A stretch of DNA of 38,420 nucleotides from Campylobacterales bacterium (GTDB lineage: Bacteria > Campylobacterota > Campylobacteria > Campylobacterales > QNZT01): the NCBI GenBank assembly GCA_027084135.1, contig JALWLO010000103.1, positions 1 to 38,420 of the forward strand. The letters are read 5' to 3'. The translations under genes and the position numbers were made by a program. A model generated the notes under the pieces. It saw nothing but the letters and a program-made list of their open reading frames with translations, did no database searches and was not told the origin of the DNA. Of this stretch, positions 2,488 to 36,305 are shown piece after piece; the first letter of the stretch is position 1, and every line of letters begins with the position of its first letter.

Positions 2488-2526
2488 CTAGTACTAAGCA
2501 TAGTTAACTTTTAGTACTAGTACTAA
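2488..2526 (+). repeat. Cluster of three TAGTACTA palindromes (two overlapping) in rplA-rplJ spacer
   Basis: CTAGTACTAA (2488-2497), TTAGTACTAG (2511-2520), CTAGTACTAA (2517-2526); 2511-2526 TTAGTACTAGTACTAA is a perfect 16-bp palindrome; 2488-2497 and 2511-2520 are also mutual inverted repeats. Confidence 0.9.
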
Positions 2527-2553
2527 AAGGGGATTTAATCTTTGGTTTAAGAA

Positions 2554-2625
2554 AATAGGGGTCGTATGACTTAAATAAAGAGGCAACTCCTAGCCTCTCT
2601 CCTTAAGTTTAAGGTTTGCCCTATT
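2554..2625 (+). promoter_or_regulatory. Ribosomal protein L10-leader-like RNA element upstream of rplJ
   Basis: Three nested stems: AATAGGG(2554-2560)/CCCTATT(2619-2625), ACTTAA(2569-2574)/TTAAGT(2603-2608), AGAGGC(2579-2584)/GCCTCT(2593-2598), directly upstream of rplJ as expected for L10(L12) autoregulation. Confidence 0.65.
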
Positions 2626-2648
2626 GATGAAACCAGAAAGGAGGAAAA

Positions 2649-3137
2649 ATGACAAGAGATGACAAAGTTAAGATCGTCGATGAGCTCACACAAGAGTTTA
2701 GTAATGCAAATGCCATCTTAGTTTGTGATTTCAAAGGCATGTCTTGTCAAGAGCTTGAAAAAGTGAGACAGTCAGCCCTTGATTCGGGAACTAAAGTCAA
2801 AGTTTGTAAAAATACTCTTGCTTCTATCGCATTGAAAAATGCAGATATGGAAGAGATAAAGCTCTTTGATACAAATATCTTTGTTTGGGGCGAAGATCAG
2901 ATTTCTGCGTGTAAAGTTGCAGATGATGCCGCATCAAATTTCAAAGATAAGTTTGTGATCAAAACAGGTCTCATTGCAGGTAAAATTGCAGATATGGCAA
3001 CGATTGAAGCGTACGCTAAATTACCTAGCAGAGATGAGCTTATCGGTATGTTGCTCTCTGTTTGGACAGCTCCGGCAAGAAACTTTGCTACCGGACTTGA
3101 CAATCTTAGAGCAAAAAAAGAAGAAGAGTCGGCTTAA
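2649..3137 (+). CDS. rplJ: 50S ribosomal protein L10
   Basis: DDKVKIVDELTQEFSNANAILVCDFKGMSCQELEKVRQ; rplJ-rplL-rpoB order. Confidence 0.98.
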   Translation: MTRDDKVKIVDELTQEFSNANAILVCDFKGMSCQELEKVRQSALDSGTKVKVCKNTLASIALKNADMEEIKLFDTNIFVWGEDQISACKVADDAASNFKDKFVIKTGLIAGKIADMATIEAYAKLPSRDELIGMLLSVWTAPARNFATGLDNLRAKKEEESA

Positions 3138-3208
3138 GTTAGCCTATTTACAAATTTATAAGAGTTAAGTAAAAATTTAAGATAAAATAATTTAAAAAAG
3201 GAAGGGAA

Positions 3209-3586
3209 ATGGCAATTACTAAAGAAGATGTTTTAGAGTTTATCTCAAATATGTCTGTGCTAGAGCTTAGTGAGCTTGTAAAAGAGTTTGAGGAGAAGTT
3301 TGGTGTTTCAGCTCAACCTACTGTTGTAGCCGGTGCTGCTGGTGGAGCCGCAGGTGGAGGAGCTTCTGAAGAGAAGACAGAGTTTGATGTAGTACTTAAA
3401 GATGCCGGTGCTAAGAAGATCAATGTCATTAAAGCGGTTAGAGCAATAACAGGTCTTGGTCTAAAAGAGGCGAAAGAGGCTGTTGAGGGTGCTCCTACAA
3501 CGATCAAAGAGGGTGTTAGTAAAGAGGATGCCGAAGAGGCTAAAAAGCAGCTTGAGGAGGCTGGTGCTACTGTTGAGCTTAAGTAG
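3209..3586 (+). CDS. rplL: 50S ribosomal protein L7/L12
   Basis: Flexible Ala/Gly hinge then [43 protein letters not shown]. Confidence 0.99.
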
Positions 3587-3590
3587 TAAC

Positions 3591-3611
3591 AAGAGAGAGT
3601 TTATCTCTCTT
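3591..3611 (+). terminator. rplL-rpoB attenuator/terminator-like hairpin
   Basis: AAGAGAGA-GTTTA-TCTCTCTT followed by TTATCTTAT. Confidence 0.5.
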
Positions 3612-3712
3612 TTATCTTATGTTGAAGAGTATTCAATATCTGTTATAAATGACATTTGTAAGAGATGTTGGATAGATAACTTCTTTCCTAAATTTGCAAA
3701 AAACTTCTATGA

Positions 3713-12377
<8,665 letters not shown>

Positions 12378-12380
12378 AAC

Positions 12381-12406
12381 TTCATCGGGTAACTTTTCCC
12401 GATGAA
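12381..12406 (+). terminator. rpoC terminator-like hairpin
   Basis: TTCATCGGG-TAACTTTT-CCCGATGAA, 9-bp stem just after the rpoC stop. Confidence 0.6.
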
Positions 12407-12436
12407 AACCCTTTTCTTCATTGTTTTTAAGCGATT

Positions 12437-12442
12437 TATAAT
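12437..12442 (+). promoter_or_regulatory. Candidate -10 box of rpsL-rpsG-fusA operon
   Basis: TATAAT after a T-rich stretch, downstream of the rpoC hairpin and 69 nt upstream of the rpsL ATG. Confidence 0.45.
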
Positions 12443-12511
12443 CTCAATTTTTGTAACATTTGCCTCCTTTATGGACATTTGTCTGTAAATAAGGAAAATT
12501 TTAAAAAGGAT

Positions 12512-12892: not shown

Positions 12893-12898
12893 GAGTTT

Positions 12899-12938
12899 TT
12901 AGTACTAATCCATCTTTAGGTGCTTAGTCTAGTACTAA
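12899..12938 (+). repeat. Pair of TTAGTACTAA-family palindromes in rpsL-rpsG spacer
   Basis: TTAGTACTAA (12899-12908, perfect) and CTAGTACTAA (12929-12938), starts exactly 30 bp apart; GCTTAGT(12922-12928)/ACTAAGC(12934-12940) also forms a hairpin. Confidence 0.9.
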
Positions 12939-13030: not shown

Positions 13031-13510
<480 letters not shown>

Positions 13511-13521: not shown

Positions 13522-15612
13522 ATGGCAAGATCACATAAATTAGAGGATTTAAGAAATATAGGGATTGCCGCTCACATTGATGCCGGTAAGACTACAACAA
13601 CAGAGAGAATTCTCTTTTACACAGGTGTTGAGCACAAGATAGGTGAAGTGCATGACGGTGCCGCTACGATGGACTGGATGGAGCAGGAGCAAGAGAGGGG
13701 TATCACCATCACTTCAGCTGCTACCACCTGTACTTGGAGAGGAAAACAGATCAATATTATTGACACTCCGGGACACGTTGACTTTACGATCGAAGTTGAA
13801 AGGTCCATGAGGGTTCTTGACGGTGCTGTGAGTGTATTTTGTGCCGTTGGCGGTGTACAACCTCAGTCTGAGACTGTTTGGAGACAAAGAAATAGATATG
13901 GAGTACCTTCTATCGTATTTGTGAATAAAATGGATAGGGTCGGTGCAGACTTTTATGAGGTTGAGAGACAGATCAGAGAGAGACTCAAAGGTAACCCTGT
14001 GCCGATCCAGCTTCCTATAGGTGCGGAAGATAACTTTGAGGGAGTGATCGATCTTGTGAAGATGAAAGAGATCGTGTGGGATGCGGAAGCCGCAATGGGT
14101 AGTGCATATCACGAGCAAGAGATCAGAGATGAGTTAAGAGAGAAAGCAGAAGAGTATAGAGAAAAGATGATCGAAGAGATAAGCTCCGTTGATGGAAATG
14201 AGGAGCTTATGGAGAAGTTCCTCGAGGGTGAAGAGCTCACAAATGAGGAGATCATGGCAGGTATAAAAAAAGCCACTATCAACATGCATATCGTACCTAT
14301 GACTTGCGGAACCGCTTTCAAAAACAAAGGTGTTCAGACACTGCTTGATGCGGTTGTAGACTATTTACCGGCTCCGACTGAAGTTCCTCCGATCAAAGGA
14401 ACATTGATGGATGATCCTGATACGGTAGTAGAGGTCGAGTCAACGGATGATGGTCCATTTGCGGCGCTTGCGTTTAAAATCATGACTGATCCTTTTGTGG
14501 GACAACTTACCTTTATCCGTGTCTATCGAGGAAGCTTAGAGTCAGGTAGCTATGTACTAAACTCTACGAAAAATAAAAAAGAGAGAGTCGGTCGTATCAT
14601 GAAGATGCATGCGATCAAGAGAGAGGAGATCAAAGAGATCTATGCCGGTGAGATTGGTGCGGTTGTCGGTCTCAAAGATACGACTACTGGTGATACACTT
14701 TGTGACCCAAGTGATAAAGTAGTACTAGAGAGGATGGATTTCCCTGATCCGGTTATCTCAGTTGCGGTCGAGCCGAAAACAAAAGCTGACCAAGAGAAGA
14801 TGGGTATAGCGCTTCAAAAATTGGCTCAAGAGGATCCAAGCTTTAGAGTACATACTGATGAAGAGAGTGGTCAAACGATCATCTCCGGTATGGGTGAGCT
14901 TCACCTTGAGATCATCGTTGATAGGATGAAGAGAGAGTTTAAAGTAGAAGCGGAAGTAGGTGCTCCGCAAGTTGCATATAGAGAGACTATCAGAAGCACG
15001 GTTGAGCAAGAGTACAAATATGCTAAGCAGTCAGGCGGTAGAGGTCAATATGGTCATGTATTCTTGAAGCTAGAGCCGCTAGAGCCTGGTGAAGGGTATG
15101 AGTTTGTGGATGCGATCAAAGGTGGTGTTGTTCCAAAAGAGTATATCCCTGCGGTTGATAAAGGTGTACAAGAGGCGATGCAAGGCGGTATACTTGCAGG
15201 TTATCCGGTAGAGGATGTGAAAGTGACGCTTTATGACGGTAGCTATCATGATGTTGACTCCTCTGAGATGGCGTTTAAACTTGCCGGTTCTATGTGTTTC
15301 AAAGAGGGAGCTAAAAAGGCAAACCCTGTTATCCTTGAGCCGATGATGAAAGTTGAGGTTGAAGTACCTGAGGAGTATATGGGTGATGTGATCGGTGACC
15401 TTAATAGAAGAAGAGGTCAAGTTGAGGGCATGGATGAGAGAGGTGGAAATAAGATTGTTAACGCGTTCGTTCCTCTTGCAGAGATGTTTGGTTACTCAAC
15501 TGACTTAAGAAGTGCGACACAAGGTAGAGCGACCTATACGATGGAATTTGATCACTATGATGAGGTTCCTAAAAATGTTGCTGAAGAGATCATCAAGAAG
15601 AGAAATGGTTAG
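13522..15612 (+). CDS. fusA: Elongation factor G
   Basis: [26 protein letters not shown]1 motif, full-length 696 aa. Confidence 0.99.
14720..14727 (+). repeat. TAGTACTA core inside fusA
   Basis: gTAGTACTAg; encodes K-VVL-E. Confidence 0.6.
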
Positions 15613-15802: not shown

Positions 15803-17605
15803 CTAAATAATATTTTTAATCAACTGTTCGGGCAGTAATCCCATCGACTCTTCTACCACTTTTGTATTGCCGTGAGGGATAAACTTATCCTCATATTCAA
15901 AGCTTGTTACCTTAACATCTAGTATCCCTTCCTCTTGCAAAAACTCTTCGATAGCACTTCCTACGCCGCCCATTTTGGCGCTATCACTAAAGATGTACCA
16001 CTTTTTATACTTAGTACTAAGCGTTTTGAGAAGTTCTCTATCGAGTGGTTTGACAAACCTAAGATCCAGCAGTCCCACATCTCTATCTAAAAGTTTTTCA
16101 CACTCGCAGGCTCTGCCGACACCGTTACCGTAGCCTACTAGAAGGATATCGCTTTCTCCCTCTTTGAGAAGCTGAGCTTTTCCTAGCTCAAACTCTGGAC
16201 TATCGTATCGGCATCCTATAAAAGCGCCTCTTGGATACCTAAAAGAGCAGGGGGTTTTCATCTTGTAGGCAAACGCTACAGCTTGTCTCATACTCTTTTC
16301 ATCTCTCGGTGCAAAGAGTGTCATATTTGGTATCGCTCTAAGGTAACTGATATCAAATGCCCCCTGATGTGTCTCTCCGTCCTCTCCTACTATTCCGGCA
16401 CGATCTACCGCAAATACAACCGGTAGGTTCATGATGCAGGCATCATGTATTACTTGATCGTATGCTCTTTGTAAAAAGGTTGAGTATATCGCTACAAAGG
16501 GCTTGAACCCCTCCTTTGCCATTGCGCACATGCTAGTGACTGCATGCTGTTCAGCGATTGCTACATCCCAAAATCTCTCCGGAAACTTCTCCATCAAATC
16601 TTTGATTCCGGTACCGCTTGGCATAGCGGCGGTAACACCGACAACTTTCTCATCACTTTTTGCAATTTCCATTAAAGACTCTGAGAAGATCTTCGTTGCA
16701 TTTTTTGCTCCATTTTTTGCGAGAGGCTCACCAGTTTCCAAGTTAAACTTACCGACGCCGTGCCAATGTTCATAGTAGCCTTCAGCAATCTTATACCCTT
16801 TCCCTTTGGTCGTTTGGGTATGAACGATAACAGGTTTTTTCATCTCTTTTGCAAGGGTAAAACTCTCTATAAGTGCTCGTAGATCATGACCGTCAGTAGG
16901 ACCGATATACTCAAGCCCAAGCTCTTCAAAAAGTATCCCTGGGGTGATGAGCTTAAGGCTCTCATCAAATCTCTTTGCCACATAAGTCGCCCCTTCAGGA
17001 AGATGTTCGAGTATCGATTGGGCTGAGGATTTTACCTTTTGATAAAATTTACCCGCCATCACTTGGGAGAGATAGTTGCTTATCGCACCGATCGGTTTTG
17101 CTATACTCATCTCGTTATCATTGAGTATGATGACCACCGGAAGTTTGATATCTCCAAGCTCATTCATCGCTTCATAGACCATTCCGGCACTCATCGAACC
17201 GTCACCTATGAGTGCAACCGGAAGCCTATCTTCCCCTTTGAGTTTGATAGCCTTTGCCGCGCCTGTGGCTAAAGAGATAGAGGTGGAACTATGACCCGCA
17301 ACAAAGTAGTCATAAGGTGATTCACTCGGTTTGGTATATCCGCTTATGCCGCCAAATTGTCTTAAAGTATCAAATTTGTCCCATCTATCAGTTAGAAGTT
17401 TATGTGCATAAGCTTGGTGACTGACATCGAAAATAAACGGATCCTTATTGACATCAAACACATAGTGCATCGCTACGATAAGTTCTACTACTCCTAGCGT
17501 GGAGCTTAAGTGTCCCCCATTTTTACTTACGGTTTCTAAAATCTTTTGACGAATTTTTTGGCATAGATCATGTAACTCCTCTATCGAGTAAGACTTTATA
17601 TCCAT
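15803..17605 (-). CDS. dxs: 1-deoxy-D-xylulose-5-phosphate synthase
   Basis: GGHLSSTLGVVELIVAMHYVFD, VALIGDGSMSAGMVYEAMNELG, TTKGKGY motifs. Confidence 0.98.
   Translation of the reverse strand: MDIKSYSIEELHDLCQKIRQKILETVSKNGGHLSSTLGVVELIVAMHYVFDVNKDPFIFDVSHQAYAHKLLTDRWDKFDTLRQFGGISGYTKPSESPYDYFVAGHSSTSISLATGAAKAIKLKGEDRLPVALIGDGSMSAGMVYEAMNELGDIKLPVVIILNDNEMSIAKPIGAISNYLSQVMAGKFYQKVKSSAQSILEHLPEGATYVAKRFDESLKLITPGILFEELGLEYIGPTDGHDLRALIESFTLAKEMKKPVIVHTQTTKGKGYKIAEGYYEHWHGVGKFNLETGEPLAKNGAKNATKIFSESLMEIAKSDEKVVGVTAAMPSGTGIKDLMEKFPERFWDVAIAEQHAVTSMCAMAKEGFKPFVAIYSTFLQRAYDQVIHDACIMNLPVVFAVDRAGIVGEDGETHQGAFDISYLRAIPNMTLFAPRDEKSMRQAVAFAYKMKTPCSFRYPRGAFIGCRYDSPEFELGKAQLLKEGESDILLVGYGNGVGRACECEKLLDRDVGLLDLRFVKPLDRELLKTLSTKYKKWYIFSDSAKMGGVGSAIEEFLQEEGILDVKVTSFEYEDKFIPHGNTKVVEESMGLLPEQLIKNII
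16011..16020 (+). repeat. TTAGTACTAA (perfect) inside dxs
   Basis: Within 12-bp palindrome CTTAGTACTAAG; encodes LSTK on the dxs strand. Confidence 0.9.
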
Positions 17606-17615: not shown

Positions 17616-18383
17616 TTAAGCCTCTTTTTTTATCAGCTCTATCACCTTTTGTACTCTTGTTTGGATAGTAGCATCAAAATTTTCTATGTTACTAAGTATA
17701 ATAATTCCACCTTTATTTACGGCATCATCAGCAACGATTTTTATCTTTTTTATCTCTTTGAGTCTCTCTTTAAGATAGATAGCATCTATCGGGTTTGCCT
17801 TGATGATGATATAGGTGGCATCTTTGATCTTGAGAAGAAACTCTTTTGTCAGATTGAAGGCTATCTCTTTCGATCTATCTTCAAGCTCACATTTGATTAC
17901 TTTTTGGGCGATTGATATTGCAAGTTCTATCAACTCATCTTTGATCATCTCTAAAGAGCTCTTTTGATTGAGTATTGTCTCATCTAGCTTTGTGATTGAG
18001 TTGATGAGTTGCGTTTTGAATGATTCGATCTCATGAGAAGCCTCCTCTTGAAGCTCTTTCGTGGCATCCTCTCTTCCTTTTTGATAAGCCGACTCCTTCT
18101 CTTGCTCCACTTTTTCATCGAAATTTTTTTCAAGTTCTTCCAGTTTCATTTGGAGGGTGAGGTTCTCTTCTGTGAGCTTCTCTATCCTCTTGAGAAGTTC
18201 ATCAACACTCTCTTGAGGATCACTCTTGTTATCGTTAGTACTAGAGACTGTTTCATGGCTGTTATCTCTCTCTTCAAAAGATTTTGGTTCATACTTTTGA
18301 TGAGAATTGCTTTTAAACACTTTAAAGCTAAATCGCTCTATCTTATGTTCATTTGTTTGTGTATTGTCTATCACCCTTGCCAT
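17616..18383 (-). CDS. fliH: Flagellar assembly protein FliH
   Basis: Between fliG and dxs; coiled coil region then ELAISIAQKVIKCELEDRSK / VVADDAVNKGGIII typical of FliH C-terminus. Confidence 0.88.
   Translation of the reverse strand: MARVIDNTQTNEHKIERFSFKVFKSNSHQKYEPKSFEERDNSHETVSSTNDNKSDPQESVDELLKRIEKLTEENLTLQMKLEELEKNFDEKVEQEKESAYQKGREDATKELQEEASHEIESFKTQLINSITKLDETILNQKSSLEMIKDELIELAISIAQKVIKCELEDRSKEIAFNLTKEFLLKIKDATYIIIKANPIDAIYLKERLKEIKKIKIVADDAVNKGGIIILSNIENFDATIQTRVQKVIELIKKEA
18235..18244 (+). repeat. TTAGTACTAG copy inside fliH
   Basis: 9/10 match; encodes SSTN on the fliH strand. Confidence 0.8.
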
Positions 18384-23286: not shown

Positions 23287-24498
23287 CTACTCCTCCAAGA
23301 GATCTATCTCATTTGCTATCATATCCTCAAAAGTATCTCTTCTTCTTATCAATCTATCATTTCCGTTTTCTATGGCAACTTCCGCAACTCTTGCCCTCGT
23401 GTTGTAGTTGCTACTCATAGTAAATCCGTAAGCGCCGGCACTTTTGATAATGATAAGATCATCATGTTTTGTAGGGGGAAAAGCGATATCTTTGGCAAAA
23501 AAGTCACCGCTCTCACAAACCGGTCCGACGATCGAAGCTTGTGTAGCCTCTCCTCTAGCTTCAGAGAGTAGCTCTATCTTATGGTATGCGTTGTAGAGAG
23601 AGGGGCGGATGAGATCATTCATTGCTCCATCAACGATCACAAATCGCTTATCTGTGTTTATCTTTTCATAAAGGACCTTTGTTAAAAAGACTCCGCTGTT
23701 TCCGACGATGAATCTTCCCGGTTCACACATGATAGTCAGATCGAGTCCGCTTAGCGTACCAAGTATGGCTTGGGCATAATCGTAAGGTTCAATCAATTTT
23801 TCACCGTTATAATCGATACCCAGCCCACCGCCGACATCGAAGAATTTGATATCGATATCAAGGGCTTTTAGGGCTCTAACGAGGTTAGCCACCTTTGTAC
23901 TAGCCTCTTTGATAGGATCAAGTTTCGTGAGTTGAGATCCGATATGAAAGTGTATCCCTATAGGCTCCAAATGGTCGGAATTTTTCGCTTTGATATAGAT
24001 CCTCTTTGCGCTATCTTCATCGACTCCAAACTTATTAGCGTGGAGTCCGGTTGAGATATAGGGATGCGTTTTGGGGTCGATGTTAGGATTGACTCTTACA
24101 CTGATTCTAGCTTTAGTACTAAGCTCTTTGGCAATCTCTTCAACCCTGTCAAGCTCCGCTTCACTCTCGACATTGATCATCAATATATCAAGTTTGATCG
24201 CTTCTCTGATCTCATCATCACTTTTACCTACACCGGAAAAGATGATCTTATAGGGTTTTGCACCGCAAATCAAAGCCCTTTTTACCTCGCCGATGGATAC
24301 GCAGTCACAGCCTGCACCCTCATTGACCAATGTTTTGATAACGCTCAAATTTGAGTTTGCCTTTATAGCATAGCAGATGAGGGACTTTCTGCCTCTAAAA
24401 GCCTCTTTGAGTCTATTGTATTGTGTTTTGATGTGATCAAAGTCATAGATATATAAAGGTGTTCCATATTTTTGCGCCAGATATCGATAATCTACCAT
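23287..24498 (-). CDS. lysA: Diaminopimelate decarboxylase
   Basis: YGTPLYIYDFDHIKTQY; ICYAIKANSN PLP motif; start chosen at MVDYRYLAQKYG (track ORF extends to 24510). Confidence 0.97.
   Translation of the reverse strand: MVDYRYLAQKYGTPLYIYDFDHIKTQYNRLKEAFRGRKSLICYAIKANSNLSVIKTLVNEGAGCDCVSIGEVKRALICGAKPYKIIFSGVGKSDDEIREAIKLDILMINVESEAELDRVEEIAKELSTKARISVRVNPNIDPKTHPYISTGLHANKFGVDEDSAKRIYIKAKNSDHLEPIGIHFHIGSQLTKLDPIKEASTKVANLVRALKALDIDIKFFDVGGGLGIDYNGEKLIEPYDYAQAILGTLSGLDLTIMCEPGRFIVGNSGVFLTKVLYEKINTDKRFVIVDGAMNDLIRPSLYNAYHKIELLSEARGEATQASIVGPVCESGDFFAKDIAFPPTKHDDLIIIKSAGAYGFTMSSNYNTRARVAEVAIENGNDRLIRRRDTFEDMIANEIDLLEE
24113..24122 (+). repeat. TTAGTACTAA (perfect) inside lysA
   Basis: Exact 10-mer; encodes LSTK on the lysA strand. 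Confidence 0.9.
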
Positions 24499-25602: not shown

Positions 25603-26159
25603 CTACATATACTCTTTTTAGTACTAAAGTGATTTTTGAGTGTATCGATATCCATCTCTTTGGAGGCTAGGGCGATTTTACTAGTGTACTCTATGATATC
25701 GGGTAAACACTTCTCTTGAGTCTCATCGAAATCACTCAACACATAACTTGTCACTTGGGACTTTATTTTCGGTCTGCCTATGCCGACTCTTACTCTCTCA
25801 TACCCGTTTCCTATCTGTGTATCGATAGATTTCAATCCGTTATGACCGCCGCTACTGCCGCCAAGTTTGAGTCGTATAGAGCCAAACTCCAGATCCAAAT
25901 CATCATGTATAACAATCACTCTATCTATTTTATAGAAATGTTTAACTTTTTGTACACTCTCACCTGAGAGATTCATAAAAGTAAGCGGTTTTAGAAGTAA
26001 AAAGTCGGAACTTTTGTAAAGCTCACCTTGAAAAGCGCTTTTTGAGATATTTTGAGCATGGAGTTGATCGACGAGTTTGTCGATAACCATAAAGCCGATG
26101 TTGTGTCTATTTTTCTCATATTTTGGACCGGGATTTCCCAGTCCTACAAGAAGTATCAT
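25599..26159 (-). CDS. pth: Peptidyl-tRNA hydrolase
   Basis: LLVGLGNPGPKYEKNRHNIGFMVID; KPLTFMNLSGESV; HDDLDLEFGSIRLKLGGSSGGHNGLKSI. Confidence 0.99.
   Translation of the reverse strand: MILLVGLGNPGPKYEKNRHNIGFMVIDKLVDQLHAQNISKSAFQGELYKSSDFLLLKPLTFMNLSGESVQKVKHFYKIDRVIVIHDDLDLEFGSIRLKLGGSSGGHNGLKSIDTQIGNGYERVRVGIGRPKIKSQVTSYVLSDFDETQEKCLPDIIEYTSKIALASKEMDIDTLKNHFSTKKSICR
25618..25627 (+). repeat. TTAGTACTAA (perfect) near 3' end of pth
   Basis: Exact 10-mer within TTTAGTACTAAA; encodes FSTK near the Pth C-terminus. Confidence 0.9.
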
Positions 26160-26163
26160 AAAG

Positions 26164-26700: not shown

Positions 26701-26709
26701 TTTTAGTCC

Positions 26710-26742
26710 TTTTTGTAATTTAAGCCGGCAATTTTACAAAAA
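26710..26742 (-). promoter_or_regulatory. Hairpin in pilT-rplY spacer abutting the rplY RBS
   Basis: TTTTTGTAA(26710-26718)/TTACAAAAA(26734-26742), loop contains GCCGGC; rplY-strand AAGGA overlaps the stem edge. Confidence 0.4.
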
Positions 26743-26759
26743 AGTAACTAAAAAAGAGA

Positions 26760-27968: not shown

Positions 27969-27970
27969 AA

Positions 27971-28978
27971 CTATCCTTTTTCAAGTGCTTTTAATATCTC
28001 GCCAAACGCTTCTTTGAAAGCTTTAAGACCATCTTCAAGCAATTTTTTATAATTTGCTTCTATATCGACATTTGCCTCTTTTAGTTTAGTAAAAAAGTGA
28101 TCTATCTCACTATCACTAGGCGGAGTTTTGAAATCTTTTGAGTCACTTTCTAAAAAAGCTTTGATCGTTTTGAGGGGTGCGGTATTGATAGCGTTTTTAT
28201 AGAGAAGTTCGGTTATGTAGTATGCTTGCGGGAGGTCGTCACCCTTTACGCCAGTACTTGCAAAGAGTGCTCTTATATTTTCTACTCCACACACTTCGAT
28301 CATTTTATAACATCTGCTTGCATTGATGATTCCGAGTACATTAAGGGGAAAGTTTAACGCTTTGAGGGTAGGATTTAATGCTCTGTCAATTCTACTTACA
28401 AAGATAGATATTACCGCACTTGGCATTTTTTTCCCGTTACTATTAGCGTGAAACGCCTCTAGACCTTTTTGAAATGCATCGATACACTTTTGAGTCTGCT
28501 TTGGAGAGAAGATAAGTGTTGCATTGATATGTATCCCTTTGGCAAAAAGTCTCTCCATCGCTTCATACCCTGCTTCAGTAGCCGGTATCTTTATCATGAC
28601 ATTCTCTTGACCTATCTCTTTGTATAACCTTTCGGCTTCCTCTACCGTAGCTGCGGCATCATCGCAAAGTGTAGGATCTACCTCTATAGATATAAAGCCG
28701 TCATCACCCTTTTCATAGAGCGGATAGAGCAAAGATGCCGCTTTTTGGATATCGCTTGTTGCTAGTTTTTCATAGATCTCTTTAGGATCCTCTCCTTTGA
28801 GTCTTTCTATATCCGATCGATAGGCGGGTGAATGTAAAAATGCCTCTTTGAAGATAGCGGGATTGCTGGTTGCACCGTTTATGACACCACTCTCTATAAG
28901 CGCTTTAAACTCACCATCCAAAAAATCTCTCTCAATATAGTCACACCATAAGCTAAATCCATCTAACCCTCTCATCAA
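27971..28978 (-). CDS. tal: Transaldolase
   Basis: GATSNPAIFKEAF, IKIPATEAGYEAMERLFAKGIHINATLIFS. Confidence 0.96.
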   Translation of the reverse strand: MMRGLDGFSLWCDYIERDFLDGEFKALIESGVINGATSNPAIFKEAFLHSPAYRSDIERLKGEDPKEIYEKLATSDIQKAASLLYPLYEKGDDGFISIEVDPTLCDDAAATVEEAERLYKEIGQENVMIKIPATEAGYEAMERLFAKGIHINATLIFSPKQTQKCIDAFQKGLEAFHANSNGKKMPSAVISIFVSRIDRALNPTLKALNFPLNVLGIINASRCYKMIEVCGVENIRALFASTGVKGDDLPQAYYITELLYKNAINTAPLKTIKAFLESDSKDFKTPPSDSEIDHFFTKLKEANVDIEANYKKLLEDGLKAFKEAFGEILKALEKG

Positions 28979-29598
28979 ATCTCCTTTAATATCTCTCTTA
29001 GATCTTTTTTATCAATGATAATATTTGCCTCTTTTTTGAGTATCTCTTTTGCGCAAAATGCTACCTTTTTGTCGGCATGCTTGAACATACTTCTATCATT
29101 TGCTCCATCACCCACTACGAGGGTGTGCTCTTTGTTGATATTGAGTAGTGTTTGTACTCTTTGAAGCATATCTCCCTTAGAGAAGTCAAACATCATATCG
29201 CCACCGACAAGTCCGGTAAGTACACCCTCTTTAGCGTGGAGAATATTTGAAAAGTCAGCATCATACCCCAAGATATCCTTTGCATAGCCGGTAGCGTTTC
29301 TAAAGCCGCCCGAAAAAACAATGACGACATAACCTCTCTTTTTCAGTTCGGCGATCGTCTCTTTCGCTCCCGTTATAAAGGGGAGGTTATGACATATCTC
29401 GTCAACCTTTTTTGTCTCAAGTCCTTTTAAAAGTGCGACTCTCGTGGTGAGAGACTCAAAAAAGTCAAGCTCTCCCGCCATCGCTTTAGCCGTTATAGCG
29501 GAGACCTTCTCTTCCAGTCCCAACTCCTTTGCTAAAAAATCTATCGTCTCTCCATCCATAAGAGTAGAATCAAAATCAAATACACAAAGTTTGTCCAT
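28975..29598 (-). CDS. serB: Phosphoserine phosphatase
   Basis: HAD motif DFDSTLMDGETID; FSGGFR; VGDGANDRSMFKHA. Confidence 0.95.
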   Translation of the reverse strand: MDKLCVFDFDSTLMDGETIDFLAKELGLEEKVSAITAKAMAGELDFFESLTTRVALLKGLETKKVDEICHNLPFITGAKETIAELKKRGYVVIVFSGGFRNATGYAKDILGYDADFSNILHAKEGVLTGLVGGDMMFDFSKGDMLQRVQTLLNINKEHTLVVGDGANDRSMFKHADKKVAFCAKEILKKEANIIIDKKDLREILKEI

Positions 29599-29610
29599 TG
29601 ATAGCCTTTT

Positions 29611-29777
29611 AACCCAAATTTTGCATTATCCGGCATATCATCTGCATCGGTCATTGGCAGCATGGACTTTGAAGTAAAGCCTCGACGAACCCTCCGGGTG
29701 CGCCTGCGTTTTCTTTCAATGTCCCTACTACCAAGCACCGATACATCTGATATACTTTCTAATGCAAAATTTGGGTT
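29611..29777. repeat. MITE-like long imperfect inverted repeat with 18-bp perfect ends
   Basis: Left end AACCCAAATTTTGCATTA (29611-29628) is the exact reverse complement of TAATGCAAAATTTGGGTT (29760-29777); the internal arms match at roughly two thirds of positions by eye toward a centre near CCCTCCGGGTG. Confidence 0.85.
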
Positions 29778-29790
29778 TAAAAATTTTGGT

Positions 29791-29796
29791 TATAAT
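29791..29796 (+). promoter_or_regulatory. Candidate -10 box of metF-like gene
   Basis: TATAAT 28 nt upstream of the ATG at 29824, 13 nt downstream of the right inverted-repeat end. Confidence 0.5.
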
Positions 29797-29823
29797 AACA
29801 TAAAAAATATATTAGGGTATTTG

Positions 29824-30738
29824 ATGTTTGAAGATTTTGTAGATAAACTTAAAAACGGTTCATTTCTCACGCTTGAAACTACTCCAAAACACTCTCCGAC
29901 ATTTAAACCTGTGGTTGATAGGATCGAAGAGCTTGGGCTGCATAAGTTGGTGGACGGTTTTTCAGTGACCGATTCGCCTCTTGCAAAGATGAGGTATAGT
30001 TCACTCTTTGCCTCTCTTCTTCTTCAAGAGAGATTTCAAAAGCCCGTTATCGCGACGATGAGTATGCGAGATAGAAATAAAATCGCTCTACAAGGGGGGC
30101 TTCTTGGGGCAAATGAGCATGATATTAGGGCTATTTTAGCGCTTACCGGAGATCCTGTTCATGGGAGTGATCAGCCAAAAACAAAGGGGGTATTCGAAGG
30201 TAACAGTACCATGCTACTTGATATGATCAAGTGCTTTAATGCGGGGATAGACTATGCCGGGAAGGCGCTTGAAGTCAAACCTAAAAAGATCTACCCATTT
30301 GCGGTTGTCAATGCATTTGCTAAAAATCCTAAAAATCTACAAAAAAAGATGAGGCTAAAGTTGGAGCACGGCGCTATGGGTATCATCACGCAGCCGGTCT
30401 ATAATATTGACAATGCAAAGAGATTGCTTGAGATGTTTGATGAAGCGATCATAGAGGTAGGACGAGAGGATAATCCCCAGCTCATTTTCGGATACTTTCC
30501 TATCACCAAACTCAGAGTAGCGCAATTTTTATCATCGCATGTACCGGGTGTTTATGTTCCAAAGAAGTTGATGAATATCCTCTATGAAGCGAAAAAAGTT
30601 TCCGAGGAAGAGCAAGAGAGAGTAGGGTTTGAGTTTTCCTATCATCTTTTGCGGGAGTTGAGAGCGCTTCACCCAAAGACGCATGTGATGGCTGCGAATA
30701 ATTTCAAACTAGTCAGTAAGCTTCTTAATAATAGTTAG
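29824..30738 (+). CDS. Methylenetetrahydrofolate reductase family protein
   Basis: MFEDFVDKLKNGSFLTLETTPKHSPTFKPVVDRIEELGLHKLVDGFSVTDSPLAKMRYSSL...; GIITQPVYN motif. The track's start at 29662 runs into the inverted-repeat element. Confidence 0.85.
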   Translation: MFEDFVDKLKNGSFLTLETTPKHSPTFKPVVDRIEELGLHKLVDGFSVTDSPLAKMRYSSLFASLLLQERFQKPVIATMSMRDRNKIALQGGLLGANEHDIRAILALTGDPVHGSDQPKTKGVFEGNSTMLLDMIKCFNAGIDYAGKALEVKPKKIYPFAVVNAFAKNPKNLQKKMRLKLEHGAMGIITQPVYNIDNAKRLLEMFDEAIIEVGREDNPQLIFGYFPITKLRVAQFLSSHVPGVYVPKKLMNILYEAKKVSEEEQERVGFEFSYHLLRELRALHPKTHVMAANNFKLVSKLLNNS

Positions 30739-30762
30739 TACTAAGAGATCTCTTAGTACTAA
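30735..30762. repeat. Perfect 28-bp palindrome made of two TTAGTACTAA units around GAGATCTC
   Basis: TTAGTACTAA-GAGATCTC-TTAGTACTAA; contains the TAG stop of the + gene (30736-30738) and the TAG stop of cheW on the - strand (30759-30761). Confidence 0.95.
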
Positions 30763-31265
30763 AAGTCTCTTTTTAGTAGCTCTTCAACCTCTAAAATCGT
30801 TATGATAGAGTCCTTTTTTTTACCGATACCGTGTATCATACCTCTCTCTTTTTTTAATGTTTCCGGAGCAGGATCAATGGCAGACTCTTTTAGTCTGATA
30901 GCTTCAGTTAGCTTGTCTATTACAAATCCTGCGATATTATTCTCTCCTCTCATCACTATATATCTCGTATCTTCACTCGCTTTTTGCGGTTGGAGGTTGA
31001 ATTTTCTTCTTAGATCGATGAGGGGTATGACATTTCCCCTTAGGTTAAAGACACCAAGTACATAGTCAGGTGTTTTGGGCACTCTTGTGTACTCTATCTG
31101 TTTGATAATCTCCTGTATACTTAAAATAGGAACCGCATACTCCTCATCTCCCACATAAAATCCAACAAGTTGGATGATATTCTCTTGTACCTCCTCTTCA
31201 TTGAGAGAAGATTTTGAAATTTGCTCTTTTTGTCTCTTTAATACACTACTTAGATCGCCACTCAT
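30759..31265 (-). CDS. cheW: Chemotaxis coupling protein CheW
   Basis: YAVPILSIQEIIKQIEYTRVPKTPDYVLGVFNLRGNVIPLIDLRRKF. Confidence 0.95.
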   Translation of the reverse strand: MSGDLSSVLKRQKEQISKSSLNEEEVQENIIQLVGFYVGDEEYAVPILSIQEIIKQIEYTRVPKTPDYVLGVFNLRGNVIPLIDLRRKFNLQPQKASEDTRYIVMRGENNIAGFVIDKLTEAIRLKESAIDPAPETLKKERGMIHGIGKKKDSIITILEVEELLKRDF

Positions 31266-33604
31266 GCCTCAACTCCTACTTTAAGATTTATATTTTTGCT
31301 CACTGTATCTATGAGATACTCCGGTGAGTATGGTTTGGTAATATACTCTGTCATGCCCACCTCTATACCTCTTAATCTATCAGACTTCGATGTTCTGGAG
31401 GTTACGGCAAGGAGTGGAAGATTTCTATATCTAGAATATTTTCTGATCTCACTTGCCAATGTGTAACCATCCATCTGTGGCATCTCTATATCAACGAGTA
31501 CCGCATCAAAATTTACTTCACCGCTCTTGATGATATTGAGCGCTTCGAGACCGTTTGTCGCCTCTGTGATCGTTATACCAAGAGGCTTTAGGGCATTTTT
31601 CATGATGGATCTGTCAGTTTTGCTATCATCGACTATCAAGACATGATAGTCGCTCGGCGATGTTTTAGCAGTAGTTTTGGACTCACTCTCTTTGATAAAG
31701 TTAGCTTTGATATCTTTTGCCATATTCATAATAGCCGCAACATCGGTGATGAGGGTGACTCTACCGTCACCTCTGATGGTTGCGCCGGCAATTCCTTCTA
31801 TGCCTTGGAGATAATCACCCATCGATTTAATTACGATCTCCTCTTGCCCTACAAGACCGTCAACTACAATACCGAGTTTGCTTTCAGCCAAACCTATTAC
31901 AACTACATAGGTAAATTCATCATTCTCAAATACACTTTCGACTTCAAAGACATCTGATAGTCTAACAAGCGAGAGTACTTCATCTCTAAGTTTGAGTACA
32001 TTTTTACCCTCTATGGTATAGATCTCGTCCATACTGATTCTTACAGTCTCTAGGACTGAAGAGAGCGGTATAGCAAAATACTCCTCTTGTGCCGAGACGA
32101 GAAGCGCTTGCATGATAGCGAGTGTGAGAGGTATTTTAAGTTTAAAGGTTGTTCCAACACCAAGTTTACTATCGATATCTATGATACCATTGAGTTTTTC
32201 GATATTTGTTTTCACAACATCCATACCGACACCTCTGCCGCTCACTCCGGTAACTTTGGCGGCAGTGGAGAAGCCTGGTCTAAATATGAGTCCATACGCC
32301 TCTTTGTCACTCATATTATCAGCCTCTTTTTCGGTGATGATACCTTTATCTAAAGCTTTCATCTTCAAAAAGTCAGGATCCATGCCGGCACCGTCATCTT
32401 GAATCTCGATGACAATTTGGTTGCCCTCGTTATAGGCTTTGAGATAAACTGTACCTTTGGCAGGTTTCCCTTTTGCAACTCTAGTTTCCGGATCCTCTAT
32501 ACCGTGATCACACGAGTTTCTGATCATATGCACTAACGGATCTCCCACCTCTTCGACGATCGACTTATCTAGTTCAGTCTCTTCACCTTGCATCACAAGC
32601 TCGATCTCTTTGTTAAGTTCTCTTGAGAGATCTCTCACAAGTCTTGGGAACTTATTAAAGACTTTTGAGACCGGGAGCATCCTGGTCTTCATCACCGCAA
32701 TCTGCAGATCAGTAGTGACTAGAGATACGGATGAGACTACTTGGTTTAGCTCTTCTAAAAACTTCTCACCCTCATATCTCTCTTCGACATCATCATAGAT
32801 TTTTAGAAGCCTATTCTTACTGAGTACTAACTCACCGATGAGGTTCATCAGATGATCAAGTCTCTTGACCTCTACTCTGATCGTCTGTTCCGGTGCTGTC
32901 GGTTTTGAGTCACTCTTTCTTTGTGCTTTTTTAGGTTCCTCTTTTTTCTCTTGCGGTTTGAGTTGTGTCGCTTGCTTAGGTTGTTTGCTTGCTTCTTTAT
33001 GCTCTTTTGCTTTTTTCGACTTTTTCGCCTCTTTCTCTTTCTGTTTTTCGGCTAAAAGCCTCTCTATCTCAGCCTCCACCTCTTCCGGAGACATATTAGA
33101 GTAATCCACCTCTTCTAGGGACTCCTCTTTTGCCTCTTTACTTTTCTCTTCAGCAGTAGCGGCACTCTCCTCTATAGTTGTCTCTTGATTTTGCTCTACG
33201 CTACTTAGATCGCCGCCGTTTGAGATCACTTCAAAACGGTTACAGATATCATCTATTTCGATGCCGCACTCCGTATCTGTACCGCTCTCTTGAATACAGC
33301 TTAAAAGGGCTTTCATCATATCGACCGACTCTAAAATCACATCCATAATCTCTGGTGTGATCTTGAGTTCATCTCTTCTGGCCTTATTGAGGACATCCTC
33401 CATGTGATGGGTTAGTCTAGTTAGAACATCGAAGTTTAAAAATGAACTTGAACCCTTCACCGTATGTGCTACCCTAAAGATAGAGTTTAACAGTTCTAAA
33501 TCTTCAGGAGAGTTTTCAAGCTCTACAAGATCTTGATCCATCTGCTCTATGAGTTCATTTGCCTCTACTAAAAAGTCTTCTAAAATCTCTTGTAACTCAT
33601 CCAT
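31262..33604 (-). CDS. cheA: Chemotaxis histidine kinase CheA with C-terminal receiver domain (CheAY)
   Basis: Hpt (FRVAHTVKGSSSFLNF), dimerisation/HATPase (RNSCDHGIEDPE; GRGVGMDVVKTNIEKL), CheW-like, receiver (HVLIVDDSKTDRSIMKNAL). Confidence 0.98.
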   Translation of the reverse strand: MDELQEILEDFLVEANELIEQMDQDLVELENSPEDLELLNSIFRVAHTVKGSSSFLNFDVLTRLTHHMEDVLNKARRDELKITPEIMDVILESVDMMKALLSCIQESGTDTECGIEIDDICNRFEVISNGGDLSSVEQNQETTIEESAATAEEKSKEAKEESLEEVDYSNMSPEEVEAEIERLLAEKQKEKEAKKSKKAKEHKEASKQPKQATQLKPQEKKEEPKKAQRKSDSKPTAPEQTIRVEVKRLDHLMNLIGELVLSKNRLLKIYDDVEERYEGEKFLEELNQVVSSVSLVTTDLQIAVMKTRMLPVSKVFNKFPRLVRDLSRELNKEIELVMQGEETELDKSIVEEVGDPLVHMIRNSCDHGIEDPETRVAKGKPAKGTVYLKAYNEGNQIVIEIQDDGAGMDPDFLKMKALDKGIITEKEADNMSDKEAYGLIFRPGFSTAAKVTGVSGRGVGMDVVKTNIEKLNGIIDIDSKLGVGTTFKLKIPLTLAIMQALLVSAQEEYFAIPLSSVLETVRISMDEIYTIEGKNVLKLRDEVLSLVRLSDVFEVESVFENDEFTYVVVIGLAESKLGIVVDGLVGQEEIVIKSMGDYLQGIEGIAGATIRGDGRVTLITDVAAIMNMAKDIKANFIKESESKTTAKTSPSDYHVLIVDDSKTDRSIMKNALKPLGITITEATNGLEALNIIKSGEVNFDAVLVDIEMPQMDGYTLASEIRKYSRYRNLPLLAVTSRTSKSDRLRGIEVGMTEYITKPYSPEYLIDTVSKNINLKVGVEA

Positions 33605-33613
33605 TTTCTCTCC

Positions 33614-34567
33614 TTAAACGATTGTTGCGTGCAGGGATTCTCTCTTTTTGATAGCATCTGCAACCACTTTATAAAAATCCCCCGCATTAAATTTTGTCAA
33701 ATAGGCATCAGCACCGGCCTCTTCCCCTCTTATATCACTAAAGTGATCTGAGATCGAGGAGTTAAATATGAGAGGGATAGATTTAAATCTCTCATCTTTT
33801 TTTACTCTGGAAGCAAAGTGGAAACCATCAATTTTTGGCATCTCAACATCAGAGATGATCACTTTCAATTCATTGCTAATGTTCTCTCCAAAAATGCTAT
33901 ATAACTCTTCTAACTTTTCTAAGCCCATCTCTCCATCACCGGCTTCAACTACATTGAGCCCCATCTTCTCAAGTGCATTTTTTACTAATTTTCTAGCCGT
34001 TGAACTGTCATCCAGTATTAAGGCTGTTCCTTTAAATTGTTCTATCTCACCTGTTTCAATATCTGTATCAGGTTTATAAAATCCTAGATCCTCTATGATA
34101 CTTTCAAGATCAAGTATCAGAAGTACCTCATCATTCTCTATCTTTGTAACGGCGGTTATTTTTGTTCCGTCAAAGTCTTGAGAGTTTGATGTGAAGTTAG
34201 CAGGCTCGATATCACTCCATGATATTCTTCGAATTCTTCTGGCTTCATGTACGGCGAAACCTATGAGCATATTGTTAAACTCAGTAATGACAACTCTTAA
34301 CTGAACATCTTTAGGGGGTGTGATATGCATCCATTTTGCCAAGTTTATGACCGGTATGACTACTCCCCTTAAGTCAAATATCCCATCTACAAAGTCAGGA
34401 GCGCCGGGAAGTTCAGTCAGTTTTGGAAGTTTGATGATCTCTCTTACTTTCGCGACATTTACTCCGTAAATCCCTTCATATACGCCGTTTTCCGTAACCC
34501 TATATAGTCTAAAATCGACAAGTTCCATCTCATTTGAGCCAACTTTCAAGGTGTTGTCTGTAGCCAT
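33614..34567 (-). CDS. cheV: Chemotaxis protein CheV (CheW + receiver)
   Basis: LPGAPDFVDGIFDLRGVVIPVINLAKWM plus ALILDDSSTARKLVKNALEKMG receiver. Confidence 0.95.
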   Translation of the reverse strand: MATDNTLKVGSNEMELVDFRLYRVTENGVYEGIYGVNVAKVREIIKLPKLTELPGAPDFVDGIFDLRGVVIPVINLAKWMHITPPKDVQLRVVITEFNNMLIGFAVHEARRIRRISWSDIEPANFTSNSQDFDGTKITAVTKIENDEVLLILDLESIIEDLGFYKPDTDIETGEIEQFKGTALILDDSSTARKLVKNALEKMGLNVVEAGDGEMGLEKLEELYSIFGENISNELKVIISDVEMPKIDGFHFASRVKKDERFKSIPLIFNSSISDHFSDIRGEEAGADAYLTKFNAGDFYKVVADAIKKRESLHATIV

Positions 34568-34569
34568 TA

Positions 34570-35298
34570 CTAACCCTTTATCATTTTCTTAAATACAACT
34601 CCTCCTTTTAGGGTTAATCGGTAATAGACACCTTCACAAGCAAATGAATCTAGCACTCTATAGCTAAAATCCTCTTGCTCATATAGATGGTCTATATGGT
34701 AATGTCCCTCACAAAGGAGATTGTATCTATTACCACTAATATCGTATATTTTAAATTTTTGTTTAGCAATATGGCTAAAATTTTCTATTTTTTTACAAAT
34801 ATTTTTATTTTTCTGTTTTTGTAAGATCGTTTTTGAGATGAGATTGTTGCTGAAATGATCTAATATGTTTAATATCCGTAGTATGGCACTATTTCTTATA
34901 AGTTTTACATATAGTTTATATCTAGTACTAAAGGTTTTATCTCCATGAGAGAGTGCTATTTTTTGATTGTGGTACTTTAGTACTAAGGGTTGCTTTTGAT
35001 ACGGTACTACCGAAATGTTTGGAAAAATTTTTTGAAGATTGAAGTCGTGATTTCCTTCGAGATAGATGATCTCTTTCTTTTGAGAGATCTTATTGATGAG
35101 GTCGATCACTTCTCTGTTTTGGGCGATAGTGTATGCCACCTCACCTACAAGGAGATCGAACATATCTCCTAAGAAAAAGAGTTGATTGCAGTTTATTGTA
35201 CTGCTTGCGATATCTTGTAGAAACTCCAAAAACGCTTCACGAACCCCTTTTTGGTAGTGGGCATCGGTGATAAATATCGCATCTTCTTGAAGTCTCAT
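34570..35298 (-). CDS. Metallophosphoesterase, probable UDP-2,3-diacylglucosamine diphosphatase (LpxH-like)
   Basis: ITDAHYQKG, FFLGDMFDLL, YLEGNHDFNL, LSHGDKTFS, CEGHYHIDHL motifs; two genes away from lpxB. Confidence 0.75.
   Translation of the reverse strand: MRLQEDAIFITDAHYQKGVREAFLEFLQDIASSTINCNQLFFLGDMFDLLVGEVAYTIAQNREVIDLINKISQKKEIIYLEGNHDFNLQKIFPNISVVPYQKQPLVLKYHNQKIALSHGDKTFSTRYKLYVKLIRNSAILRILNILDHFSNNLISKTILQKQKNKNICKKIENFSHIAKQKFKIYDISGNRYNLLCEGHYHIDHLYEQEDFSYRVLDSFACEGVYYRLTLKGGVVFKKMIKG
34922..34931 (+). repeat. CTAGTACTAA copy inside lpxH-like gene
   Basis: 9/10 match; encodes FSTR. Confidence 0.8.
34977..34986 (+). repeat. TTAGTACTAA (perfect) inside lpxH-like gene
   Basis: Exact 10-mer; encodes LVLK. 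Confidence 0.9.
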
Positions 35299-36305
35299 GG
35301 AGTATAAGGGATAGTTGGGATACCAAGCCCCTCATCAAATCCAAACATCAAGTTTGCATTGACAACCGCTTGCGATGATGCGCCTCTAAGTAGATTGTCG
35401 ATGGCGGAATTTAGGTAGAGCTTTTTACCCTCTCGTTTGGCAAAGATATCGCAAAAGTTTGTGCCGCTACAGTTTTTTACACTAACGGGATTTTCAAAAA
35501 CTCTGATAAACGGAGCGTTTTGATAATAGGCTTTTAGTACTAAGAGTGGATCGATCTCCTCTTTTAGTACTAAGTAGCTGTCGACCAGCTCTCCTCTGGT
35601 TATAGGAAGTAGATGTGGAACAAAGGTGATATCAAAACTTTTTCCGCTACTCTTTTGAAGCTTTTCAGCGATTTCTGGTTCATGTCTGTGAGCCATAGGG
35701 TTGTAGGCAAAGATATTTTCGTTAATAGTTACAAAGTGGGTATTGTTGATACACTTTTTACCGGCTCCGCTTACACCGCTCTTTGCATCGATAAAGATAG
35801 GATAATTTGCATCGATATAGGGAGTAAACGGCAAAAGTGCAAGTAGGGCGGCGGTAGGGTAGCATCCGGGGTTTGCGACAAGATCGCTTCTTTTTATCTC
35901 CTCTTTATATAGCTCCGGCAATCCGTAAACCGCACTCTCTAGATGCGCTTTATCCTCATGTGGACAGTAGTGTCTCTCATAGGTTTCAAGTTCTAATCTA
36001 TAATCAGCCGAGAGATCAACTACTTTGACTCCCAGATCCAATAGCTCTTTTGCAAATCCCATCGAAGCTTTGTGTGGAAGCGCTAAAAAAGCCAATTTTG
36101 CTTTTTGGGCGACCACTTTCGCATCTGCCTTCTTTACATCGAACTCTATCATAGCGGTAAGAGAGGGGTGAAGTGCGCTTACACTCTCCTCACCGCTACT
36201 TGTGGCGATATAACTAATCTTAAAGTTTGGATGGTGGATAAGGATCTTTATCAGCTCTAGTCCGGTAAAGCCGCTTGCTCCTATGATCGCTACAGGGATA
36301 GACAT
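35295..36305 (-). CDS. argC: N-acetyl-gamma-glutamyl-phosphate reductase
   Basis: MSIPVAIIGASGFTGLELIKIL; VANPGCYPTAALLALLPF active-site Cys. Confidence 0.97.
   Translation of the reverse strand: MSIPVAIIGASGFTGLELIKILIHHPNFKISYIATSSGEESVSALHPSLTAMIEFDVKKADAKVVAQKAKLAFLALPHKASMGFAKELLDLGVKVVDLSADYRLELETYERHYCPHEDKAHLESAVYGLPELYKEEIKRSDLVANPGCYPTAALLALLPFTPYIDANYPIFIDAKSGVSGAGKKCINNTHFVTINENIFAYNPMAHRHEPEIAEKLQKSSGKSFDITFVPHLLPITRGELVDSYLVLKEEIDPLLVLKAYYQNAPFIRVFENPVSVKNCSGTNFCDIFAKREGKKLYLNSAIDNLLRGASSQAVVNANLMFGFDEGLGIPTIPYTP
35534..35573 (+). repeat. Two perfect TTAGTACTAA units 30 bp apart inside argC
   Basis: 35534-35543 and 35564-35573, both inside the identical 14-mer CTTTTAGTACTAAG; encode LVLK...LVLK. 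Confidence 0.92.

Follow-up and report, generated by a model that had tools for sequence, protein, structure and literature searches.

Why does a ten-base palindrome, TTAGTACTAA with the core TAGTACTA, recur among unrelated genes of the 38.4-kb window, the whole stretch of DNA analysed here, and does it do so in the rest of the genome? The window comes from G000, a Campylobacterales MAG that is 92% complete and represents a relative of Campylobacter and Helicobacter, and the statistics for this genome are based on a 552 kb sample (28%) and on whole-genome pattern counts.

Copies in the window and in the genome

An earlier note on the window listed nine exact copies of TTAGTACTAA and seven variants ending in C or G, and a pattern search of the window reproduces all of their coordinates. 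The bare core at 14720 is also confirmed, which brings the total to 17 TAGTACTA cores:

2488..2497, strand.: CTAGTACTAA in the spacer between rplA (1786-2487) and rplJ (2649-3137), forming a hairpin with the next copies
2511..2526, strand.: TTAGTACTAG at 2511 and CTAGTACTAA at 2517, overlapping with an offset of 6 bp, in the rplA-rplJ spacer
11508..11517, strand.: TTAGTACTAG within rpoC
12899..12908, strand.: TTAGTACTAA in the rpsL-rpsG spacer, 7 bp past the end of rpsL
12929..12938, strand.: CTAGTACTAA in the rpsL-rpsG spacer, second arm of a predicted hairpin
14720..14727, strand.: TAGTACTA, bare core, within fusA (EF-G)
16011..16020, strand.: TTAGTACTAA within dxs
18235..18244, strand.: TTAGTACTAG within a fliH-like gene
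24113..24122, strand.: TTAGTACTAA within an Orn/DAP/Arg decarboxylase family gene
25618..25627, strand.: TTAGTACTAA within pth (peptidyl-tRNA hydrolase)
30735..30744, strand.: TTAGTACTAA, its TAG being the stop codon of an MTHFR-family gene (+)
30753..30762, strand.: TTAGTACTAA, its TAG being the stop codon of cheW (-), convergent with the MTHFR-family gene
34922..34931, strand.: CTAGTACTAA within a metallophosphoesterase gene
34977..34986, strand.: TTAGTACTAA within the metallophosphoesterase gene that also holds the copy at 34922
35534..35543, strand.: TTAGTACTAA within a semialdehyde dehydrogenase family gene
35564..35573, strand.: TTAGTACTAA in the gene of the copy at 35534, 30 bp away

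With at most one mismatch to TTAGTACTAA allowed, the window holds 18 matches, two of which (25034 and 32821) are without the core; dinucleotide shuffles of the window give 1.84 expected matches, and a count of 18 was not attained in any of 100 shuffles. The share of copies assigned to spacers, 7 of 17, holds for positions at or between genes, yet those at 30735 and 30753 include stop codons. These two copies form a hairpin with a stem of 11 bp and a loop of 4 nt (TAGTACTAAGA-GATC-TCTTAGTACTA).

The enrichment, which the earlier note had allowed might be confined to this window, persists beyond it, as exact TTAGTACTAA occurs 553 times in the whole of G000 and the reversed control only 4 times. 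The 552 kb sample contains 340 TAGTACTA cores, where 11.6 would be expected, and 147 copies of the ten-mer TTAGTACTAA, where the expectation is 0.7; TAGTACTA exceeds the prediction of an order-3 Markov model 29-fold and is found about once per 1.6 kb (0.62/kb, 616 cores per Mb). The enriched unit is the exact palindromic octamer TAGTACTA (25% GC), mostly in the form YTAGTACTAR, and neither GTAC nor AGTACT, which are not enriched outside the octamer. Observed/expected ratios in G000 are 0.64x for AAGTACTT, 0.18x for GAGTACTC, 1.1x for CAGTACTG and 1.17x for GTAC, and one-base variants of TAGTACTA range over 0.88-2.35x at the first base and 1.4-3.4x at the second.

Placement relative to genes and in related genomes

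The motif had been described as scattered through core genes, and rightly so: 276 of the 340 sampled sites (81%) are coding, mostly as single copies in either permitted frame, and none lies in the frame that would make TAG a stop. LVL peptides in G000 number 190 against 102 expected, while the congener has 55 against 76, and ST is also inflated. The inflation of LVL and ST implies that the force behind the motif is strong enough to change proteins. A coding artefact was rejected, as the two frames give unrelated peptides and both peptides are inflated relative to the congener. In the 50 bp 3' of stop codons, TAGTACTA density is 4.31/kb versus 0.54/kb in coding sequence, an 8.0-fold difference, with a post-stop excess of 1.5-fold for control palindromes of the same composition. 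Pairs of sites at most 30 bp apart number 27 versus 5.5 expected in the G000 sample, and many stop-proximal TAGTACTA pairs are predicted to fold as hairpins.

Among the searched genomes, iteration of TTAGTACTAA is specific to the G000 lineage. No second genome with comparable abundance was found among ~497 of the order and phylum; the count is 7 in one congener and 0 in another, and the highest elsewhere is 20. Orthologous alignments with the congener G002, which has almost no motif copies, show mostly substitutions and not insertions at the sites, and 0 of 31 G000 sites are intact there. Judged from these alignments, TAGTACTA sites arose via base substitution rather than insertion. A mobile short repeat was rejected on the same grounds and because the flanks are nearly information-free beyond the 10-mer.

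In g3, another genus of the family to which G000 belongs, the equivalent palindrome is a different one, TATCATGATA (mostly as YTATCATGATAR); it is present in 1549 copies in G043 (control 7) and 1009 copies in G132 (control 1) and is likewise concentrated directly 3' of stop codons. Between these two species, which share ~73% DNA identity, 9 of 21 and 10 of 14 TATCATGATA sites are fully intact, compared with ~5% of other 10-base windows, and identity at third codon positions is 0.76-0.81 within the sites versus 0.49-0.52 elsewhere. By this comparison, TATCATGATA is maintained position by position at the DNA level. Such site-by-site upkeep is demonstrated only for the sister-genus palindrome, because none of the 31 G000 sites is intact in G002.

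A candidate uptake-type recognition tag

TTAGTACTAA may mark the whole genome as a recognition tag that is particular to this lineage and akin to uptake sequences, a tentative reading in which we infer both the reader and the uptake step and whose chance we place slightly below even. TATCATGATA looks like a tag of this sort in genus g3. The likeness to HIP1 or DNA-uptake sequences pointed out earlier is borne out, since copies are dispersed over the entire genome and occur in genes whose functions are unrelated. A dimeric DNA-reading protein would recognise the palindrome, most likely during natural transformation, as an uptake receptor or as a periplasmic or pseudopilin DNA-binding component. 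Cells that preferentially take up kin DNA and recombine it would thereby propagate and maintain the sites, and one motif would give way to another when the specificity of the receptor changes. G000 contains three prepilin-like genes side by side. ComEC was found in all three genus members, including the congener without the motif; as it is widespread and present in this motif-free congener, having competence genes is not what sets the motif-bearing genome apart.

The well-known uptake sequences of Neisseria and the Pasteurellaceae are non-palindromic. Like the motifs described here, DUS (Neisseriaceae) and USS (Pasteurellaceae) are 9-12 bp long, present in hundreds to thousands of copies and spaced at ~0.5-1 per kb (0.62/kb for the G000 core, with a motif of roughly 10 bp). 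They likewise lie within genes and are enriched outside them, form stem-loops as stop-proximal pairs and differ between related genera; inverted, terminator-associated pairs are known for the Neisseriaceae dialects (PMC3630211). DUS and USS are kept at orthologous places, which is seen here for TATCATGATA in genus g3, but for 0 of 31 TTAGTACTAA sites versus G002. Unlike DUS and USS, the present motifs are palindromic, AT-rich, located in Campylobacterota and putative in their uptake function, and TTAGTACTAA and TATCATGATA differ more from each other than DUS dialects do. Much the same pattern would be predicted by a chromosome-organising protein, or by a modification enzyme absent from the assembly.

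Campylobacter jejuni discriminates DNA at uptake via a methylated RAATTY motif (PMC10046745). This CtsM/RAATTY system belongs to the same order and, like the proposed tag, discriminates kin DNA by sequence at uptake, but its motif, a methylated hexamer read by way of m6A, is short, whereas the palindrome here is long and no methyltransferase was found for it.

Competing explanations and wider meaning

In Elhai's cyanobacterial model for HIP1, the core is methylated by a solitary enzyme, and the sites are made and kept by repair that methylation directs or by some other function that depends on methylation. An origin of this type is unlikely for TAGTACTA, albeit to be taken seriously. Cyanobacterial HIPs are palindromes, mostly coding and swapped for other palindromes in relatives (PMC4390886), and HIP1 (GCGATCGC) and its alternates share with TAGTACTA exact symmetry, genome-wide spread, mostly coding location and abrupt replacement in a relative. 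The density also fits the class (6-8 bp palindromes at about 500-2500 per Mb; 616 per Mb in G000), and methyltransferases are abundant in Campylobacterota. Against this type, neither a D12-type nor a C5-type methyltransferase, nor any methyltransferase fitting TAGTACTA, was found in the 92% complete G000, and the inner AGTACT and GTAC are not enriched on their own. Furthermore, HIPs in Elhai's list are GC-rich (50-100% GC), whereas the G000 and g3 palindromes are AT-rich; one-base deviations of HIPs cluster at the two terminal bases, unlike those of TAGTACTA; and HIP1 is without the strong post-stop peak with hairpin pairs.

The GTAC-centred methylation or protection motif proposed in the earlier note is not supported, as enrichment is confined to the complete octamer and the methyltransferases identified in G000 are parts of other systems. 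Of two N6_N4_Mtase matches, one adjoins an RE_TdeIII endonuclease and the other resembles a type III Mod; an HsdM-like protein (type I) accounts for the N6_Mtase match, and the remaining Eco57I matches read as non-DNA methyltransferases. The TdeIII-partner enzyme (C19) was rejected as the cognate methyltransferase owing to this endonuclease neighbour and to its full-length homologues (50-61% identity) and partial ones (80-83%) in motif-free genomes. The restriction-modification targets of ScaI (AGTACT) and RsaI (GTAC) have the GTAC centre in common with TAGTACTA; unlike such targets, AGTACT and GTAC are neither enriched nor avoided here, and the octamer alone is iterated.

That a protein for chromosome organisation, segregation or global regulation binds at ~1,200 places is quite unlikely. 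The palindrome would suit a dimeric binder, sites are spaced nearly at random across G000, and TATCATGATA sites are strongly conserved in genus g3, but no macrodomain-like blocks are visible in the 552 kb sample, sites per gene fit a Poisson distribution, and a motif switch inside one family is hard to reconcile with a many-site housekeeping protein. In G000 the motif shows no enrichment upstream of starts and is scarce in the first 25 bp, which makes classical promoter control unlikely.

Biased mutation or mismatch repair (Vsr-like or methylation-independent conversion) could write the motif without a selected function, and the appearance of sites through lineage-specific substitution accords with it. 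This is improbable, as such repair should deplete mismatch-derived neighbours, whereas transition neighbours are mildly over-represented (≤5.3x in G043 for TATCATGATA, ≤2.4x in G000), as expected from the decay of maintained sites, and as it leaves the post-stop peak and the hairpin pairs unexplained. An RNA-level element, in which 3'-end copies, paired or single, terminate transcription or guide RNA processing and those in coding DNA are spill-over, would account for the peak 0-50 bp past stop codons and the hairpin folds but is most improbable, given the intragenic, mostly single majority in either permitted frame, an obvious T-run in few TAGTACTA pairs and the counter-selection that a terminator signal within genes would meet.

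The uptake-type recognition tag could be one member of a series. Possibly, although we consider it rather doubtful, this Campylobacterota family uses fast-switching palindromic self-recognition tags, one per genus or species, with a dimeric reader, a common YTA...TAR frame and a variable centre (GTAC or TCATGA). If true, the phylum would have a new class of uptake or kin-recognition sequence that works independently of methylation, and the replacement of one motif by another would be visible here among near relatives. To our knowledge, there is no earlier long uptake-type motif in Campylobacterota, so that this one would be the first. The open-access literature searched contains no relevant paper naming the TTAGTACTAA or TATCATGATA motif and, for uptake discrimination in this phylum, only the methylation-based RAATTY case. 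The findings touch on the function of HIP-like repeats and on how uptake sequences start, spread and are replaced. One family comprises a genome with a lineage-specific motif, nearly motif-free congeners and a sister genus that stably keeps another motif, and such contrasts make the question of what changed with the motif answerable from few genomes.

A phage source was considered and rejected: paired motifs in 25 viral contigs are mostly local clusters, and of 10 viral contigs checked, one gave a single weak match to the congener and nine none. In the G002 sample, 4 of 11 cores lie within a sugar/surface-polysaccharide-type cluster, which base composition, rather than exchange, could explain.

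Abundance and form of the palindrome

All 17 TAGTACTA cores listed in the earlier note were found in the window, where 18 matches with at most one mismatch compare with 1.84 expected, a number reached by none of 100 shuffles. The source genome, G000 (1.98 Mb, 144 contigs, 92% complete), contains 553 exact copies of the 10-mer and four of the reversed pattern, so the claimed excess over chance is borne out at both scales. An order-3 Markov model of 552 kb of sampled G000 stretches predicts 11.6 cores and 0.7 10-mers (observed: 340 and 147, respectively). Enrichment is seen in 39 of 41 stretches, the two without any site being 4.2 kb and 2.0 kb long, and extrapolation from 0.62 per kb would give about 1,200 cores per genome. 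The motif is neither ordinary nor an artefact, and it is larger in extent than first claimed.

The core is preceded by Y and followed by R in about 85% of cases in G000, while flanks outside Y-TAGTACTA-R are near background. AGTACT outside this context is neutral or avoided, and one-base variants of the core are only mildly enriched; intact sites therefore far outnumber decayed ones.

The window's rpoB is nearest to those of Campylobacterota (a metagenome-assembled genome labelled Nitratiruptor, 75%; Aliarcobacter, 73%; Helicobacter, 68-72%). Gene content includes rplA, rplJ, rpoB/rpoC, rpsL, rpsG, fusA, dxs, pth and cheW, as well as a fliH-like gene, an MTHFR-family gene and a CheA-like kinase, among others. 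With this variety no single regulon is involved, as the earlier note had held. Three copies lie in the rplA-rplJ spacer (window 2488-2526), the usual place of ribosomal L10 leader RNAs, with which they could interact.

Placement in genes and after stop codons

Entirely within genes lie 276 of the 340 sampled sites, using only the two frames without an in-frame TAG (NTA GTA CTA, n=160; NNT AGT ACT ANN, n=116). The LVL peptide occurs 190 times in G000 vs 102 expected, and 55 times vs 76 expected in a congener; ST stands at 1.28x and 0.89x, respectively. This inflation indicates that the motif alters not only synonymous sites but also the proteins themselves. The first tenth of genes is richer in coding sites, which would fit LVL being tolerated in signal peptides.

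Within 50 bp past stop codons, site density in G000 reaches 4.31 per kb, compared with 0.83 in other spacers and 0.54 in genes, whereas 63 other palindromes of equal composition show just a 1.5-fold post-stop rise. The stop codon itself is contained in 11 sites, among them those at both genes converging at window 30738-30759. Pairs at most 30 bp apart number 27 vs 5.5 expected, and many post-stop pairs can fold into 9-15 bp stems.

Occurrence in relatives and a second palindrome

Within the genus, G002 has seven copies (control 1) and G001 none. A wider count covered samples, not the whole group, of the order (299 genomes) and phylum (397), with about 497 distinct handles. The runner-up for TTAGTACTAA is G157 with 20 copies (control 2), and its genus mate G393 has nine (control 1), both slightly raised and both in another family; the remaining sampled genomes are at or near control level. 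In viral contigs L175, L171, L169 and L166, which seem to have no link with the G000 host, TTAGTACTAA-type copies are locally clustered in groups of 5-10.

In orthologous G002 stretches (~74% identical), none of 31 G000 sites is intact; most align gap-free with several substitutions each. Third-codon-position identity is 0.37 within sites vs 0.50 elsewhere, as would be expected if sites were written by substitution in the G000 lineage; loss in G002 plus drift is a formal alternative. Four of the 11 cores in the G002 sample cluster at G002:C38 ~185.8-189.4 kb (L136) among glycosyltransferase/flippase-like genes, possibly through import or a base-composition effect.

A search for over-represented palindromes in stretches of eleven other genomes gave a single strong match, TATCATGATA (full form YTATCATGATAR) in G043, which with G132 represents another genus of the same family. 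Whole-genome counts are 1549 (control 7) in G043 and 1009 (control 1) in G132, while G000 has 10 copies. Moderately raised counts in G038 of another family (166, control 2), G198 (88, control 6), G244 (66) and G226 (49), with controls of 2-6 in these four, may be remnants of this motif or show it at an early stage. The second palindrome, like the first, has outer Y and R in ~83-85% of cases, in the frame YTA...TAR. Its post-stop peak is 2.54 vs 0.63 per kb, and its close-pair excess is weaker (8 vs 4.3 expected).

In alignments of G043 and G132, 9 sites out of 21 and 10 out of 14 are intact, whereas the remaining 10-nt windows are intact in 5.8% and 4.7% of cases (P ~1e-6 and 5e-11); the site counts are small because only ~14% of each genome was sampled. 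Third-position identity is 0.76-0.81 in sites vs 0.49-0.52 elsewhere. Retention and identity together show that the motif is actively maintained at the DNA level in this genus (example stretches: L191-L194, L237-L270). The G043 core ATCATGAT and TAGTACTA are letter-by-letter complements (mirror images), an odd but probably coincidental relation.

Uptake sequences, methyltransferases and restriction

A long motif, near-random spacing, coding-permitted placement, a post-stop peak and hairpin pairs make up the pattern of DNA uptake sequences, from which we infer that DNA uptake is the most likely role of the motif. Neisseriaceae dialects likewise form inverted pairs at terminators (PMC3630211), resembling the post-stop hairpin pairs of G000. 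In Haemophilus, ~65% of sites are coding in a genome that is 86% coding (PMC2346458), and C. jejuni, of the same order as G000, can discriminate DNA at uptake (PMC10046745). In G000 the ComEC competence channel is encoded next to a gene identified by eye as dnaB, and three prepilin-like genes form a cluster; no uptake receptor for the motif was found. It is also possible that a chromosome-organising protein reads the motif.

The main rival is the HIP1/methyltransferase model (PMC4390886). As regards METHYLTRANSFERASES, family searches of G000 gave two N6_N4_Mtase proteins, listed with a third enzyme:

G000:C19:17579-19920 (L092, L126), restriction-modification pair of a 528 aa N6_N4 methyltransferase and an RE_TdeIII endonuclease (family search)
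C105, second N6_N4_Mtase, reading as a type III Mod (class from sequence features)
C39, the one HsdM-like N6_Mtase (family search)

Overlapping motif copies lie ~110 bp upstream of the C19 pair, and full-length homologues of its methyltransferase are scattered among genomes without the motif. Family search of the 92% complete genome gave no MethyltransfD12 or C5 enzymes; of two Eco57I-family matches, one reads by eye as a small methyltransferase of tRNA type and the other as one of PrmC/HemK type. None of the methyltransferases found fits TAGTACTA, though 8% of the genome may be missing, and on this key test the HIP1 model fails. GTAC is at only 1.17x expectation, which also speaks against the suggested GTAC-centred methylation motif. 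The proposed likeness to HIP1 or uptake sequences holds for the pattern; in kind, the motif falls among the highly iterated palindromes and the uptake sequences. What is new is the combination: the palindrome is AT-rich, none of the methyltransferases found fits it, hairpins lie close to stop codons, and one motif replaces another from genus to related genus.

The specificity of TdeIII is GGNCC. GGCC is strongly avoided in G000 (0.09x), consistent with this specificity, although its avoidance is equally strong in the congener. ACGT stands at 0.06 (G000) and 0.01 (G002) of expectation and GGCC at ~0.1 in both samples, which suggests long-standing restriction pressure in both congeners.
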